Shown: positions 27,778-56,969 of the stretch, one piece after another
Position numbering within the stretch: the stretch's first letter is position 1
Layout of the letters: every line of letters starts with the position of its first letter
Source: Candidatus Magnetocorallium paracelense
GTDB lineage: Bacteria > Nitrospirota > Thermodesulfovibrionia > Thermodesulfovibrionales > Magnetobacteriaceae
Assembly: GCA_029001845.1 (NCBI GenBank)
Contig: JAREWP010000033.1
Span: 124,001-188,000 of the forward strand
Length of the DNA: 64,000 nt
Direction: 5' to 3'
Notes under the pieces: model-generated
Databases searched by the model: none
The model's input: the letters and a program-made list of their open reading frames with translations, nothing else
Told to the model about the DNA's origin: nothing
Made by a program: the position numbers and the translations under genes

Positions 27778-28488
27778 CTAATTTTTCTTTATTTTAAAAA
27801 TTTTAAATTCTTCCGATTCCTCTCCCTTTCTCAGTGTGACAGATATGTCATCCATATCGATAATTTCCGACCCGTCTTCAAAAACATGCCCTCCTTCAAG
27901 AATAACGATCTCTTCCTCTTTTGCCTTTCCTTCTTCTGTCTCCTCTATTTTCCTAAACACAGCCGTTTTCTTTTCATTTGTTATCAGCACTCCGATTAAT
28001 CGATGTGTCTTGTCCGGAGGGGGGGGAGTCGGTGTTGGCGTAGGAGTCGGAGTCGGAGTTGGAGTAGGCGTCGGTGTCGGAGTAGGTGTCGGCGTCGGAG
28101 TAGGTGTCGGAGTAGGTGTCGGAGTAGGTGTCGGTACGGGAGTTGGCGTAGGCCGATCGTATTTTCCGTTCTGTGCGAATATATTGCGTGCTTCAATATC
28201 ATGATATTCTCTATCCCTCTTTACTCCAGGAAGAGCTTCCTTATCCGAATACGCATCTTGTCGAATTTCTGACTCTTCAGGAAGGTTATTATAACTTAAC
28301 TCAGGCTTAAATACAATAAATGCAGGTATTGCGGCGAAAAGGAAAACAAAGCAAATAATATCTGACTTATATTTACCGGAAAACCGTTTCCATTTAATGA
28401 AAGTTCCCGAGAAACTTTCCTTTGAAGGAATAAGCTTTTCTTTTATTCGGTGTAGTAAAATATGTAAAGAATCTCCCTGCAGCTTCAT
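27778..28488 (-). CDS. gspC: Type II secretion inner-membrane protein GspC-like, with a long Pro-Thr linker
   Basis: GspC links the inner-membrane platform to the secretin. A single transmembrane helix lies at about residues 43-60. It is followed by a periplasmic region with the RNIFAQ motif seen before the homology-region domain in GspC/PulC. A Pro-Thr repeat linker occupies about residues 112-155 with some 22 PT units. A C-terminal HR-like domain (HRLIGVLITNEKKTAVF) ends the protein. There is no PDZ domain, so this is the short form. The call rests on position in the operon and the HR pattern. Confidence 0.75.
   Translation of the reverse strand: MKLQGDSLHILLHRIKEKLIPSKESFSGTFIKWKRFSGKYKSDIICFVFLFAAIPAFIVFKPELSYNNLPEESEIRQDAYSDKEALPGVKRDREYHDIEARNIFAQNGKYDRPTPTPVPTPTPTPTPTPTPTPTPTPTPTPTPTPTPTPTPTPTPPPPDKTHRLIGVLITNEKKTAVFRKIEETEEGKAKEEEIVILEGGHVFEDGSEIIDMDDISVTLRKGEESEEFKIFKIKKN
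28020..28150. repeat. Low-complexity PT-encoding tract in gspC
   Basis: A near-perfect run of six-base units (for example GTCGGAGTAGGT on the plus strand) encodes alternating Pro-Thr. It is likely to vary in copy number between strains through slippage. It is not a CRISPR array. Confidence 0.85.
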
Positions 28489-51778: not shown

Positions 51779-53101
51779 ATGTTAAAAAAAGACGATATAA
51801 AACCTGCAAAAGGAGTAAGGGACTGGTACGGCAGAGAGGCTCTCCTGCGCAACAGAGTGCGTGACACACTGCAGGAGATATTTCAGAGGTACGGTTATGT
51901 TCCTTTGGAAACCCCTGTCATCGAGAGAGAAGACATCCTGAGTTTCAAGGGTGGAGGGGAAATACAGAAAGAGATTTTTAAATTGAGTGATCAGGGTAAA
52001 AGGAGTCTTGCCCTCCGTTTCGACCACACGCTCCCTCTTGCAAGATTTTTCACTACCCATAAAGAGCTGAAAAAACCCTTTAAACGATATGTCATGGGCG
52101 AAGTATTCAGAGACGGTCCCACTCAGCCGGATCAGGGACGATACAGAGTATTTTCTCAATGCGATGTCGATATAATCGGCGTAAAAGGCATGGCAGCCGA
52201 AGCGGAACTTCTTACTCTTGCTTCAGACGCCGTTACGGAACTCGGTCTCGGAAAAGTGACAATCCGGATTAACAACAGAAAGGTTTTGGACGGTATTATG
52301 GACAATGCCGATATCTCCGAAACCTCAAAGTTACAGGCAATTCTTGTTCTCGATAAACTGGACAAAATAGGGGTTGAGGGAGTAGAAAAGGAGTTTTCTG
52401 CTCTTGGCAGTACTGTTATCTCCGATTCCGCCATAAAAAAATTAATTGGTAACACCCTGATAGAGGGAGATAATAAAGAAAAAACCGATTTTCTCCACGG
52501 AATTATATCTTCAGAAAAGGGCAAGGAAGGATTGGAGGAAATCGGACATCTCCTCGATTATTGTAAGGAGATGAATTTCGATTTCGTGGAGTTCACTCCC
52601 TCCCTGGCAAGAGGTCTGGATTATTATACAGGAACGACTTTAGAGGTCTTTTTGGAGAATAAGGAGGTTATTGATTCCGCACTTCTGGCAGGAGGCCGTT
52701 TTGATAATCTGCTTGGAGATTTTTCCGGTTCCGACGAACCGATATATGCAATAGGCATATCTTTCGGACTGGAAAGGATATGTACGGCAATCGAGTCTTC
52801 CTCTTTGAATGGGAAGGAGACAACTACGGAGCTTTTTATCATTCCCATGAAAACAATGGCTCAAAGCCTGAAAAGGGCCCATATGTTAAGAAAGGAAAAG
52901 ATAAATACAGACGTCGAACTTAATGGAAGAAGCCTTAAAGCGGCAATGCGCTATGCCAATTCTTCCAACATTCCCTTTGTCGGGATTATCGGAGAAGATG
53001 AAATAAACAATGATGTTATTTCCATAAAAAGATTGAGCGACGGTATGCAAAATAAAGTCAAAATTAACGATGTCAAATCCTATTTAAAAGAAAACAGGTA
53101 A
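51779..53101 (+). CDS. hisS: Histidyl-tRNA synthetase
   Basis: Charges tRNA-His. The class II motif 2 (VFRDGPTQPDQGRYRVF) is about residues 109-125, and the HisRS-specific SLARGLDYYTGTTLEV lies near 275. A C-terminal anticodon-binding domain (AHMLRKEKINTDVELNGRSL) covers about 360-440. All HisRS-specific elements are present, so I call it the synthetase and not HisZ. I prefer ATG 51779; the TTG at 51758 adds seven residues. It opens the five-gene run to 56969, where each gene follows the last within 0-4 bases. Confidence 0.9.
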   Translation: MLKKDDIKPAKGVRDWYGREALLRNRVRDTLQEIFQRYGYVPLETPVIEREDILSFKGGGEIQKEIFKLSDQGKRSLALRFDHTLPLARFFTTHKELKKPFKRYVMGEVFRDGPTQPDQGRYRVFSQCDVDIIGVKGMAAEAELLTLASDAVTELGLGKVTIRINNRKVLDGIMDNADISETSKLQAILVLDKLDKIGVEGVEKEFSALGSTVISDSAIKKLIGNTLIEGDNKEKTDFLHGIISSEKGKEGLEEIGHLLDYCKEMNFDFVEFTPSLARGLDYYTGTTLEVFLENKEVIDSALLAGGRFDNLLGDFSGSDEPIYAIGISFGLERICTAIESSSLNGKETTTELFIIPMKTMAQSLKRAHMLRKEKINTDVELNGRSLKAAMRYANSSNIPFVGIIGEDEINNDVISIKRLSDGMQNKVKINDVKSYLKENR

Positions 53102-53104
53102 AAA

Positions 53105-54352
53105 ATGGATATGTATAAAAATAAGAACGATCTTCTTTCCGGCGATATCGTAAAGTTCAGAAAGCTGGAAAGAATATTCCTTGAGAGATGCAGACAGTTC
53201 GGGTATAGGGAAATAAAGACCTCGACGATAGAGCCTCTTCATATTTTCACAACGGCGGAAGCTCTTTCTCCTGAATCACTGAAGAGAATTTACTCTTTCA
53301 TCGATTGGGGAGGCTGGAGCGGTGAACGAGTAGTTCTGAGACCGGACTCTACCGTATCGACGGCAAGGTACTACCTCGGTCATCTGAACGATGAACCACT
53401 TGCAAAGGTTTGCTATGTGGAGAACCACTTTTTCCTGGATGATACGGGACAAGGCGTTTCCGAGAGATGGCAGTTCGGGCTTGAAACCATTGGAGACGAT
53501 TCGTCGCTGTCCGATGTGGAAACTGTTTTTATTGCTTTCGATACCCTACATGCTGCAAAATTGCCAAAAACCTTTATTCATCTTTCCTATCCGAGAATTG
53601 TTAAAGAATGCATAAAACATACATTCCCCGAAGAGTCGGACAAACAAAGAGCACTGGAACTAATCAAGACCAACCGGTATGAAGAGCTGCAATCGTTAAA
53701 GACCGGGGAAAACGGGCTTGATACCCTGCTTACGCTTCTCCATTTCAAAGGCAAGGGCGCTTCTTTTTTAAAAAATATCAAAAGCAGCTTCAGCGAATCG
53801 GATGGCATACAACAATACCTCAACAGATTTATCGAAGTTTGCCTGGTCCTGGATCGACTGAATTGCAGTTATGAAATAAACTTTTCTCTTTCAAAAAATT
53901 TCGATTACTATACAGGAATACAATTTGAAATTCTCTCACGTCCACAAAAAAGATACGCCAGAGATGTCTTATGCTCCGGCGGTCGCTACAATAACCTGAT
54001 CGGCTCTCTGGGAAAGGGAGACAAAGAGACGCCTTCCGTCGGATTCGCTTTCTATATTAAAAACATCGTTGCTCTATTGCATCTCTCCCATGACAGCCTC
54101 CGTCATATCGCCATTACAATGAGTAATATTACACATCAGAACATGAACGGCGCCAGGGGACTGTGCAATAAACTAAGCAACCTTGGTTTTGTGGCCTCCA
54201 TTACTTTGAACGAGATAAAAAGAGAATATCGTGAAAAATACGGTCTCATTATCGAAGTGGACTACGATAAATTCAGGGACGGATACGCTGTTATCTACAG
54301 TCAGGATATCGGCAAATCTCTTCTAAAACAAATCTTCGGAGAATCATTCTGA
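53105..54352 (+). CDS. HisZ-like ATP phosphoribosyltransferase regulatory subunit homologue
   Basis: A class II synthetase-like protein of the HisZ type. It has a class II core with LRPDSTVSTARYY (about 78-90), FDYYTGIQFEI (about 266-276) and GGRYNNLIG (about 292-300). At the position of the HisRS catalytic Arg-Gly (RGLDYYT) it has KNFDYYT, so tRNA charging is unlikely. The C-terminal ~80 residues (about 333-415) recall an anticodon-type domain, unusual for HisZ, which normally lacks it. HisZ forms the octameric ATP-phosphoribosyltransferase with short HisG. Here two HisG-like genes follow. Confidence 0.8.
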   Translation: MDMYKNKNDLLSGDIVKFRKLERIFLERCRQFGYREIKTSTIEPLHIFTTAEALSPESLKRIYSFIDWGGWSGERVVLRPDSTVSTARYYLGHLNDEPLAKVCYVENHFFLDDTGQGVSERWQFGLETIGDDSSLSDVETVFIAFDTLHAAKLPKTFIHLSYPRIVKECIKHTFPEESDKQRALELIKTNRYEELQSLKTGENGLDTLLTLLHFKGKGASFLKNIKSSFSESDGIQQYLNRFIEVCLVLDRLNCSYEINFSLSKNFDYYTGIQFEILSRPQKRYARDVLCSGGRYNNLIGSLGKGDKETPSVGFAFYIKNIVALLHLSHDSLRHIAITMSNITHQNMNGARGLCNKLSNLGFVASITLNEIKREYREKYGLIIEVDYDKFRDGYAVIYSQDIGKSLLKQIFGESF

Positions 54353-54354
54353 TT

Positions 54355-55023
54355 ATGAAAGAGACTTCTCTGTGTCTGCCAAAGGGAGATAACCTGAAAG
54401 CCGTTTCCGCGATCCTGGAGGAGATATCCTTTCCCATAGAAGGGTATACATCGGACAACCGGACCTATCGCCCTGTAATTGAAACACTGAAAAATACCAG
54501 GGCTAAGATATTCGCGGAAAAGGATGTGGCCATTCAGGTATCGGTAGGCAATTACGACATCGGTTTTTGCAGTCTCGACTGGATAGAGGAACAACTGGCG
54601 AAATCTCCGAAATCGGATCTCAAGATTTTGAAGAGAGTGGGAAGGAGTTATAAAAAAATATTCGCCTGCTGTCACAAAAGTTTTAAAGGGGAGAGCATCG
54701 AAGAGTTCTTGAAACTTCACGATGACTGCAGAATTATCAGCGAATACCCCGGTATTTCGGAACACTTCGCTATTGACAGGGGAATGAAGAAATACACAAT
54801 CTTTCCGGCATGGGGAAGCGTGGAAGTCTATCCTCCCGAACATGGGGAAATCGTTATCCTTGCCGCAGAGGACGATAAATCTCTTGAACCTCTGAATCTG
54901 AAACCATTGGATTTGATACTGGAATCGGAACTTTGTATTATTATTAACCAAAGGGCCTATGAAACAAGGGATATCTCTACGGTTCTGAACTTTTTCAGAA
55001 AAATCGAGGTAAAGGAAAAATGA
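54355..55023 (+). CDS. HisG-like protein A, ATP phosphoribosyltransferase fold with degenerate PRPP loop
   Basis: A 222-residue protein aligning to the short-form HisG. It has an LPKG motif (residues 8-11), YDIGFCSLDWIEEQ (about 67-80), IISEYPGISEHF (about 127-138) and GSVEV (about 154-158). The PRPP-binding loop, normally D-I-V-S-T-G-x-T-L, reads instead LAAEDDKSL (about 169-177), so the T-G pair is lost. It probably has no own transferase activity, or uses a different ligand. The family role is ATP plus PRPP to phosphoribosyl-ATP, the first step of histidine synthesis. It overlaps the next gene by four bases. Confidence 0.75.
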   Translation: MKETSLCLPKGDNLKAVSAILEEISFPIEGYTSDNRTYRPVIETLKNTRAKIFAEKDVAIQVSVGNYDIGFCSLDWIEEQLAKSPKSDLKILKRVGRSYKKIFACCHKSFKGESIEEFLKLHDDCRIISEYPGISEHFAIDRGMKKYTIFPAWGSVEVYPPEHGEIVILAAEDDKSLEPLNLKPLDLILESELCIIINQRAYETRDISTVLNFFRKIEVKEK

Positions 55024-55730
55024 TAAATCTGGCCATTCCCGACGGTCACCAAATGAAGCATGTCCTAAAGTTTTTCGATAACATAGGATTATGTCTGGAT
55101 GGTTATAACAACGGAACTCTGAATCGCAGACCTCTTCTGCCGCCGGATAGGGCGCCGAAAATGCTGAAGTCTCCTGAATCGATTTATACAAAGGTTATCA
55201 GACCTCAGGATATGCCCACCCATGTGGCCTCCAATGATTTCGATCTGGGCATAACAGGTACGGACTGGTTAAAGGAGCATACCATACGCTTTCCCTTAAG
55301 CCCGGTGGAAAAACTGCTTGGTCTTGGTTTCGGTAAAGTCAGAATCGTAGCGGCGCTTCATGAATCTCTGCCGGTATACTCCATAGAGGAACTGCGCAAT
55401 TTTCTTTCCTCCTTTACTCCCCTCGATTACTTCAGAATCGCCTCTGAATACACTTATATTGCCGACGATTACGCCAGGAGAAAAAAACTCCACAAGTACA
55501 GAGTGATCATGACCTACGGCGCGACCGAGTCACTCATACCGGAAGACGCTGAAATGATTTTGGAAAATACCGAAACAGGCAGTACTCTCCGTAAGAACCG
55601 CCTTAGGATTATCGACACTCTTTTCGAGTCCGAAGGGTGTCTGATTGTCAATAAAAACAGTCTTGACAACAAAGAAAAAAAAGGCGTTATAGAATCGCTT
55701 TGCGATCTGTTTCAAAGGGGCCTTACATAG
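55020..55730 (+). CDS. HisG-like protein B, ATP phosphoribosyltransferase fold with PRPP loop kept
   Basis: A 236-residue paralogue of the preceding gene. It has a LAIPDGH start (lysine of PKG replaced by Asp), FDLGITGTDWLKEH (about 74-87) and an IASEYTYIADDYA block (about 140-152). The PRPP loop ENTETGSTL (residues 182-190) is recognisable, with Asp to Glu at its first position. It starts in an ATGA overlap with the previous gene. With the HisZ-like protein it could form a heteromeric assembly; the true substrate may not be ATP. Confidence 0.75.
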   Translation: MINLAIPDGHQMKHVLKFFDNIGLCLDGYNNGTLNRRPLLPPDRAPKMLKSPESIYTKVIRPQDMPTHVASNDFDLGITGTDWLKEHTIRFPLSPVEKLLGLGFGKVRIVAALHESLPVYSIEELRNFLSSFTPLDYFRIASEYTYIADDYARRKKLHKYRVIMTYGATESLIPEDAEMILENTETGSTLRKNRLRIIDTLFESEGCLIVNKNSLDNKEKKGVIESLCDLFQRGLT

Positions 55731-55733
55731 AAC

Positions 55734-56969
55734 ATGAGATATCAGAACAATATAAAGCTTACTGAAGAGAATTATATTCAATATAAAAACCCCTTCATAA
55801 AACTTTATGTCGAAGCTTTTTCGGGAATTCTCGACAAAGAAGAACTGAATCCCGATGAGATAGAGAAGAAAATCAAGCGTTGGCTCTCCCATAAGGACAA
55901 CCTTATTCTCCTTAAGTTTGAAAACGATCATCTTGCAGCCTTCTGTGCAGGATACAACACCTGTTGCGCGGAAAGCCAAAAAAACAACACCGGGAAGACA
56001 AAAGATATCTGGGAGACATTTTGCGGACTTGGTCATTTTAGAGAGGAGCAGGAGACAAAGGAACTCTATTTTATAGACAGTCCTGTCGCATCGCAGCAAT
56101 ACAAAGACCGAGGCTATGTAGAAGAATTAATCGAACAGGTAATTTTTTCCAAGAGTGACGACTATTGTCGTTTTTTATTAATGACCCACAGACGGGAGAA
56201 AGAGCTGGAGATTTATAAAGAGAGGTTTCGTTTCATCCCTCTTGAGTATCCGGGCCCTGACAAAGGATTTACTTTTCTCGAGTTAAACAGAGCAGTTAAA
56301 AAGGTCACCTACATGATGCTCCTCGCAACCGTTGTAAAGGAGTGTGGAGAGGAGTTGACAGAGGCGAATTATTATGATAGTGATATTATCCTGAGACAAT
56401 CGGAAATCGGCCTGACCCCTTACAATGGGGATCGTGGATTTGGCAGGGTACGAAAAACCGTGGCCGAGAAACTGAGCATTGTTAATTCGAAGTTAAAGAC
56501 CTATAACAGGGATCAGGGGACAGATTACAGACTCCTCCTGTTACAAGGTTACAAGAGTTTGGAATCTCAGAATGAAGCATTTCATGCTTACAGGCAAAAG
56601 CTGGCTCAAAGGAGACTGCAATTCAATAACCTATATGATTTTATTGAAGAAATCCACAGACATGTCGCCGTTCCCACTGTGGCCGGCTATCCCACCGGAG
56701 GCGCAGTAAACGTCACGATCTTTGACAACCAAAACAGATCCTTCCCGGACATGGGTTCTCACCTTTACGAATATACATCGGATAAAACAACATGGGACGT
56801 AAAAGGTCTTACTCCGGAACAAAAGGCCAACAGGCAGTTACTATTTGACCTGATGACCGGCCAGGGATTCGCCCCGTTTCACGACGAGTGGTGGCGTTAC
56901 TCCTACGGAGACAGAGAGTGGGCCGTATATTACAACGAACCACACGCCATTTACGATCATCTGGTCTGA
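55734..56969 (+). CDS. GNAT domain fused to a D-Ala-D-Ala dipeptidase (VanX/DdpX)-like domain lacking the zinc ligands
   Basis: A 411-residue protein. Residues about 1-185 look like a GNAT acetyltransferase fold, with the CoA-loop-like block SQQYKDRGYVEELIE at 120-134. Residues about 205-411 resemble VanX/DdpX: LLLLQGYKSLESQNEAF (about 267-283), AGYPTGGAVN (317-326), PDMGSHLYEY (338-347) and DEWWRYSYG (384-392). In VanX the zinc ligands are His, Asp and His in SxHxxGxAxD and ExxH. Here they are Tyr319, Asn326 and Arg388, while Glu385 remains and the catalytic Arg is Lys274. So it is unlikely to be a zinc dipeptidase. It is the last gene of the hisS-HisZ-HisG-HisG run. Function unknown. Confidence 0.7.
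   Translation: MRYQNNIKLTEENYIQYKNPFIKLYVEAFSGILDKEELNPDEIEKKIKRWLSHKDNLILLKFENDHLAAFCAGYNTCCAESQKNNTGKTKDIWETFCGLGHFREEQETKELYFIDSPVASQQYKDRGYVEELIEQVIFSKSDDYCRFLLMTHRREKELEIYKERFRFIPLEYPGPDKGFTFLELNRAVKKVTYMMLLATVVKECGEELTEANYYDSDIILRQSEIGLTPYNGDRGFGRVRKTVAEKLSIVNSKLKTYNRDQGTDYRLLLLQGYKSLESQNEAFHAYRQKLAQRRLQFNNLYDFIEEIHRHVAVPTVAGYPTGGAVNVTIFDNQNRSFPDMGSHLYEYTSDKTTWDVKGLTPEQKANRQLLFDLMTGQGFAPFHDEWWRYSYGDREWAVYYNEPHAIYDHLV

Follow-up and report, generated by a model that had tools for sequence, protein, structure and literature searches.

The window, by which we mean the whole stretch of 64,000 nucleotides analysed here, carries at positions 51779 to 56969 a run of five open reading frames, all on the plus strand:

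51779..53101, plus strand: hisS (NCBIfam hisS 344.8 bits, cut-off 286.8)
53105..54352, plus strand: hisZ (PF13393 148 bits; TIGR00443 171 bits, under the cut-off of 271.7)
54355..55023, plus strand: HisG-A, with a degenerate PRPP loop (PF01634 65.7 bits, cut-off 25.5)
55020..55730, plus strand: HisG-B, with an intact PRPP loop, TETGxTL (PF01634 126.8 bits, cut-off 25.5)
55734..56969, plus strand: a GNAT-M15/VanX-like fusion (Peptidase_M15 43.6 bits)

Only 3 bases separate hisS from hisZ, 2 bases hisZ from HisG-A and 3 bases HisG-B from the GNAT-M15 gene, while HisG-A and HisG-B share a 4-base ATGA overlap. The original prediction had described a compact same-strand run of five genes, with two diverged HisG copies and no other his gene in the 64 kb, and we observe all three: both copies match PF01634, with the scores of HisG-A and HisG-B differing as listed, and E. 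coli His protein queries found no further his gene in the window. Upstream of hisS, Rfam recovered no known histidine leader or T-box. The gap there holds an Rfam match to a group II catalytic intron element (D1-D4-6, RF02005; 51361-51594, minus strand; 52.8 bits, gathering threshold 49), and a search of about 1.2 Mb of this genome gave no second copy. Elsewhere in the window, a long Pro-Thr dipeptide repeat protein is encoded between type II secretion-like genes (27778-28488, minus strand).

The genome that contains the window (6.0 Mb, estimated 99.6% complete) has exactly two PF01634 genes and exactly two PF13393 genes, and all four belong to the cluster, as HisG-A and HisG-B and as hisS and hisZ, so that a canonical hisG or hisS hidden elsewhere in this genome can be rejected. 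Outside the cluster we find hisD (contig C2), hisC-hisB (C11) and a hisI-like gene (C9), whereas hisA, hisF and hisH were not found with E. coli queries in the 2.3 Mb examined of the 6.0 Mb genome. Since the cluster holds the sole HisG, HisZ and HisS, and the genome has hisB, hisC, hisD and a hisI-like gene at other places, it very probably encodes, judging by sequence, the ATP phosphoribosyltransferase (ATPPRT) of this genome. In a screen of 60 genomes (that of the window and 59 relatives), each same-family relative that gave a match has one long HisG, and its HisS matches the window HisS only in pieces, at about 26-40% identity. Further Nitrospirota from the same order encode a short HisG directly after murA as well as a long HisG (L003 1351-1989, L005 1480-2109), an arrangement that resembles the murA-hisG-hisD order of Acinetobacter.

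The cluster recurs beyond this genome. The HisG-A query led to two same-class genomes with the A-B pair. Two short peptide patterns, which may miss distant homologues, were then scanned against about 85,000 species genomes and gave four loci, two of them apparently already among the same-class matches. In total, hisS-hisZ-A-B is contiguous in five genomes, that of the window and four further Nitrospirota, whose cluster proteins show 55-71% amino acid identity to those of the window. The co-occurrence that the original prediction had proposed to look for is seen for these four genes, and the contiguity in four other genomes indicates that the run is not a chance association. The two HisRS-family genes of the cluster are the only ones in all five genomes, hisB and hisD are likewise present in all five, and HisG-A and HisG-B are the only HisG genes in four of them, the window's included. 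The exception is G403, which has the cluster plus a native long HisG adjoining hisD, so that other ATPPRT genes can coexist with the cluster. Contamination is an unlikely source of this long HisG, which the tree places with a Nitrospirota HisG, that of G337, and which lies next to the only hisD of G403.

Identities between the window's genome and G403 are 0.69 for HisS, 0.61 for HisZ, 0.60 for HisG-A and 0.71 for HisG-B, roughly tracking those of hisD (0.62) and hisB (0.63), and the GC content of the cluster is similar to that of its flanking genes. Recent horizontal transfer is not supported by these values, and the cluster may have been inherited with differential loss or acquired by an old transfer. 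Plasmid searches found no close relatives of HisG-B, HisZ or HisS.

With respect to the first two genes, hisS retains R113, R121, R259 and R311 (E. coli numbering), which comprise class II and HisRS-specific catalytic residues, in all five genomes, and by these residues it is a genuine HisRS. In HisZ, R121 is absent, R259 is represented by K, G, E or R and R311 is replaced by N, while the histidine pocket is kept (Y264, Y288, Q127 and E131). HisZ is thus a HisRS paralog lacking aminoacylation residues and retaining the histidine pocket, although its score stays below the NCBIfam equivalog cut-off. Its C-terminal extension, which the original prediction had pointed out, is not unusual and has counterparts, since A. 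baumannii and P. arcticus HisZ carry such a domain and L. lactis and T. maritima HisZ do not (PMC10795190). In known short-form enzymes HisZ activates HisG and confers inhibition by histidine (PMC10795190), and with its catalytic arginines lost, its pocket kept and the arginines of hisS intact, the HisZ described here is expected to do both.

The two HisG chains, of 222 (HisG-A) and 236 (HisG-B) residues, cover the PF01634 profile nearly fully, and each consists of the HisG catalytic domain and lacks the C-terminal regulatory domain. Residues are numbered here as in P. arcticus HisG, with Arg56 placed by means of the solved variant 7z6r, in which Ala takes its position. HisG-B has the PRPP loop [DE]xxTGxTL, as TETGxTL, in all five genomes and keeps Arg73. 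HisG-A has no Thr/Ser-Gly PRPP loop: Thr180 and Gly181 are replaced by D/N and D/E, respectively, in all five genomes, the acidic residue 176 is lost and Ala stands at position 73. Conversely, HisG-A keeps Lys30 and an invariant Arg56 motif, NR[ST]YRP, in which its Arg36 corresponds to P. arcticus Arg56, whereas HisG-B has Asp at the position of Lys30, His at that of Arg32 and a shortened LN[RK]RP in the Arg56 region, its nearest arginine being shifted and not invariant (R or K). The long HisG of Nitrospirota has Ser at position 32. We also note that two residues are inserted into the PRPP loop of HisG-B in G402 (ENTETETGATL versus ENTETGATL; L071 8660-9385).

A phylogeny of 34 HisG sequences places the paralogs A and B as sisters (support 98/97). 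The stem of HisG-A is long, at 2.75 versus 0.79 for HisG-B, and the tree program flagged the meeting of long branches at this point. The HisG-A reading frame is nevertheless intact in all five genomes, the other copies being 57-60% identical to that of the window. Its dN/dS values (0.056-0.086) lie below those of HisG-B (0.13-0.16) for pairs among G170, G326 and G402, the other pairs being saturated. HisG-A is under strong purifying selection despite the loss of its PRPP loop.

In the HisZ-activated P. arcticus enzyme, Arg56 crosses the HisG dimer interface to PRPP in the active site of the other subunit, and the R56A and R32A variants show 42-fold and 25-fold lower activity, respectively (PMC9734150). 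One chain of the cluster lacks the PRPP loop but has the Arg56 motif, and the other has the loop but only a shifted, non-invariant arginine, which suggests an A-B pair in which A serves the site of B. The operon is probably that of a HisRS and a three-component short-form ATPPRT, made up of a catalytic HisG-B, a pseudoenzyme HisG-A and a histidine-sensing HisZ. As the first, feedback-controlled step of histidine synthesis, HisG-B would bind PRPP and ATP and form phosphoribosyl-ATP; HisG-A, lacking standard PRPP binding, would pair with it as a pseudoenzyme subunit, probably lending Arg36 to its active site; and HisZ, the aminoacylation-dead HisRS paralog, would activate the A-B pair and shut it down when histidine is plentiful. 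The stricter version, with HisG-A as an obligate pseudoenzyme whose Arg36 serves the sole working active site of an A-B heterodimer, giving a naturally asymmetric, HisZ-controlled ATPPRT with one site per HisG pair, is a more tentative proposal, to which we give slightly less than even chances.

Several observations count against the three-component enzyme. The cluster of G403 coexists with a native long HisG; Asp30 and His32 of HisG-B could weaken catalysis, although the long Nitrospirota HisG also departs from arginine at position 32; HisZ falls short of the TIGR00443 cut-off; and hisA, hisF and hisH are missing from the portion of the genome searched for them. Furthermore, AlphaFold models of HisG-A and HisG-B are of low confidence (mean pLDDT 41 and 48, with five sequences per alignment), and the A-B pairing is predicted from conserved residues.

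An ordinary short-form ATPPRT of HisG-B and HisZ, with HisG-A acting outside the active site as an independent stabiliser, an adaptor for HisZ or a sensor of some other ligand, would fit the lack of a PRPP loop and of Arg73 in HisG-A, and HisG-B, whose own loop is intact, could obtain an interface arginine from its NRRP motif. We consider this unlikely, as the invariant NR[ST]YRP of HisG-A corresponds to Arg56 of other HisG proteins, the nearest residue of HisG-B varies between R and K, and HisG is known to function as a dimer whose subunits share an interface arginine (PMC9734150).

The fifth gene had been proposed as a partner of the other four, but a GNAT-M15 gene follows HisG-B in only two of the five genomes, that of the window and G403 (locus L072), and does not form part of the conserved core. 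The M15 halves of the two copies are 58% identical. Pfam does not recognise the GNAT half of the window copy and assigns that of the L072 homologue to PF00583 (29.3 bits), and the VanX zinc ligands H, D and H, present in the L072 homologue, are Y, N and R in the window copy, which by these residues resembles a pseudopeptidase without zinc. In G403 the gene that comes directly after GNAT-M15 (L072 10615-11433) has the histidine racemase CntK as its best NCBIfam match; at 61.5 bits, against an equivalog cut-off of 300 bits, its sequence makes it at most a related racemase, and no homologue was found in 396 genomes of the phylum, the window's included. Both genes look like accessory genes. GNAT adjoining M15 is also seen in FxLD-type methyltransferase loci of Streptomyces, where nothing points to histidine.

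These neighbours bear on whether the cluster might form a phosphoribosyl-transfer or D-histidine system of its own, in which HisG-like chains make another product with GNAT-M15 and racemase-like partners. In favour of such a system, G403 keeps a native long HisG alongside the cluster, and in that genome the cluster is followed by a GNAT-M15 with intact zinc ligands and then by the CntK-like gene. We regard it as very unlikely, considering that the cluster provides the only HisG genes in four of the five genomes, with hisB and hisD present, that three genomes have no GNAT-M15 after HisG-B and the window copy appears inactive by its residues, and that the racemase-like gene has no counterpart across the phylum genomes searched. 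The original prediction had left a choice between a heteromeric assembly making a modified nucleotide or conjugate and a divergent, regulated first step of histidine synthesis; the former is not supported and keeps a small probability through the native long HisG and racemase-like gene of G403, and a heteromeric form of the latter agrees with the single set of hisG, hisZ and hisS in a genome 99.6% complete that also has other his genes. Finally, that HisG-A is a decaying duplicate without function, as its lost catalytic motif and long stem branch might suggest, is highly improbable given its intact reading frame in five genomes and a dN/dS below that of HisG-B.

The three-component enzyme is in line with the short-form HisGS-HisZ enzymes of Psychrobacter arcticus (5M8H), Acinetobacter baumannii (8OY0), Lactococcus lactis (1Z7M) and Thermotoga maritima (1USY), which likewise combine a short HisG devoid of the C-terminal regulatory domain with a HisZ devoid of synthetase residues. 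These known enzymes have one type of HisG chain, whereas the cluster has two unequal chains, one of them without a working PRPP loop. The operon layout has precedents, with hisS-hisZ-hisG annotated in the same order, on the same strand and with overlaps or very short gaps in the Alphaproteobacteria Paracoccus, Paroceanicella and Ruegeria; their operons have a single hisG, whose product falls on a tree branch separate from A and B. The new element is therefore the second, degenerate HisG, and the cluster most likely encodes a variant of a known enzyme and not a new pathway. Among the matches listed in the open-licence literature there is no report of a hisG accompanied by a pseudoenzyme, or of a duplicated hisG of such kind, which lends weak support to novelty. 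A comparable division of labour exists in trypanosome AdoMetDC and its prozyme, where a duplicated catalytic chain has lost catalysis and selection maintains its role as a partner; the likeness to HisG-B and HisG-A is one of analogy only, without homology.

ATPPRT is a textbook allosteric enzyme, with current research directed at HisZ, the dimer interface and Arg56. The usual ATPPRT among relatives of the window's organism is the long-form HisG of other Nitrospirota, which belongs to the same HisG family, is some 290-300 residues long, includes a C-terminal regulatory part and works with no HisZ. In the genomes that carry the cluster, the whole hisS-hisZ-hisG unit replaces the usual HisRS and, in four of the five, also the usual long HisG, which the remaining genome keeps. 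If the division between a catalytic and a non-catalytic HisG is true, this natural split would allow the roles that residues play within a chain to be tested apart from those that they play across the interface.
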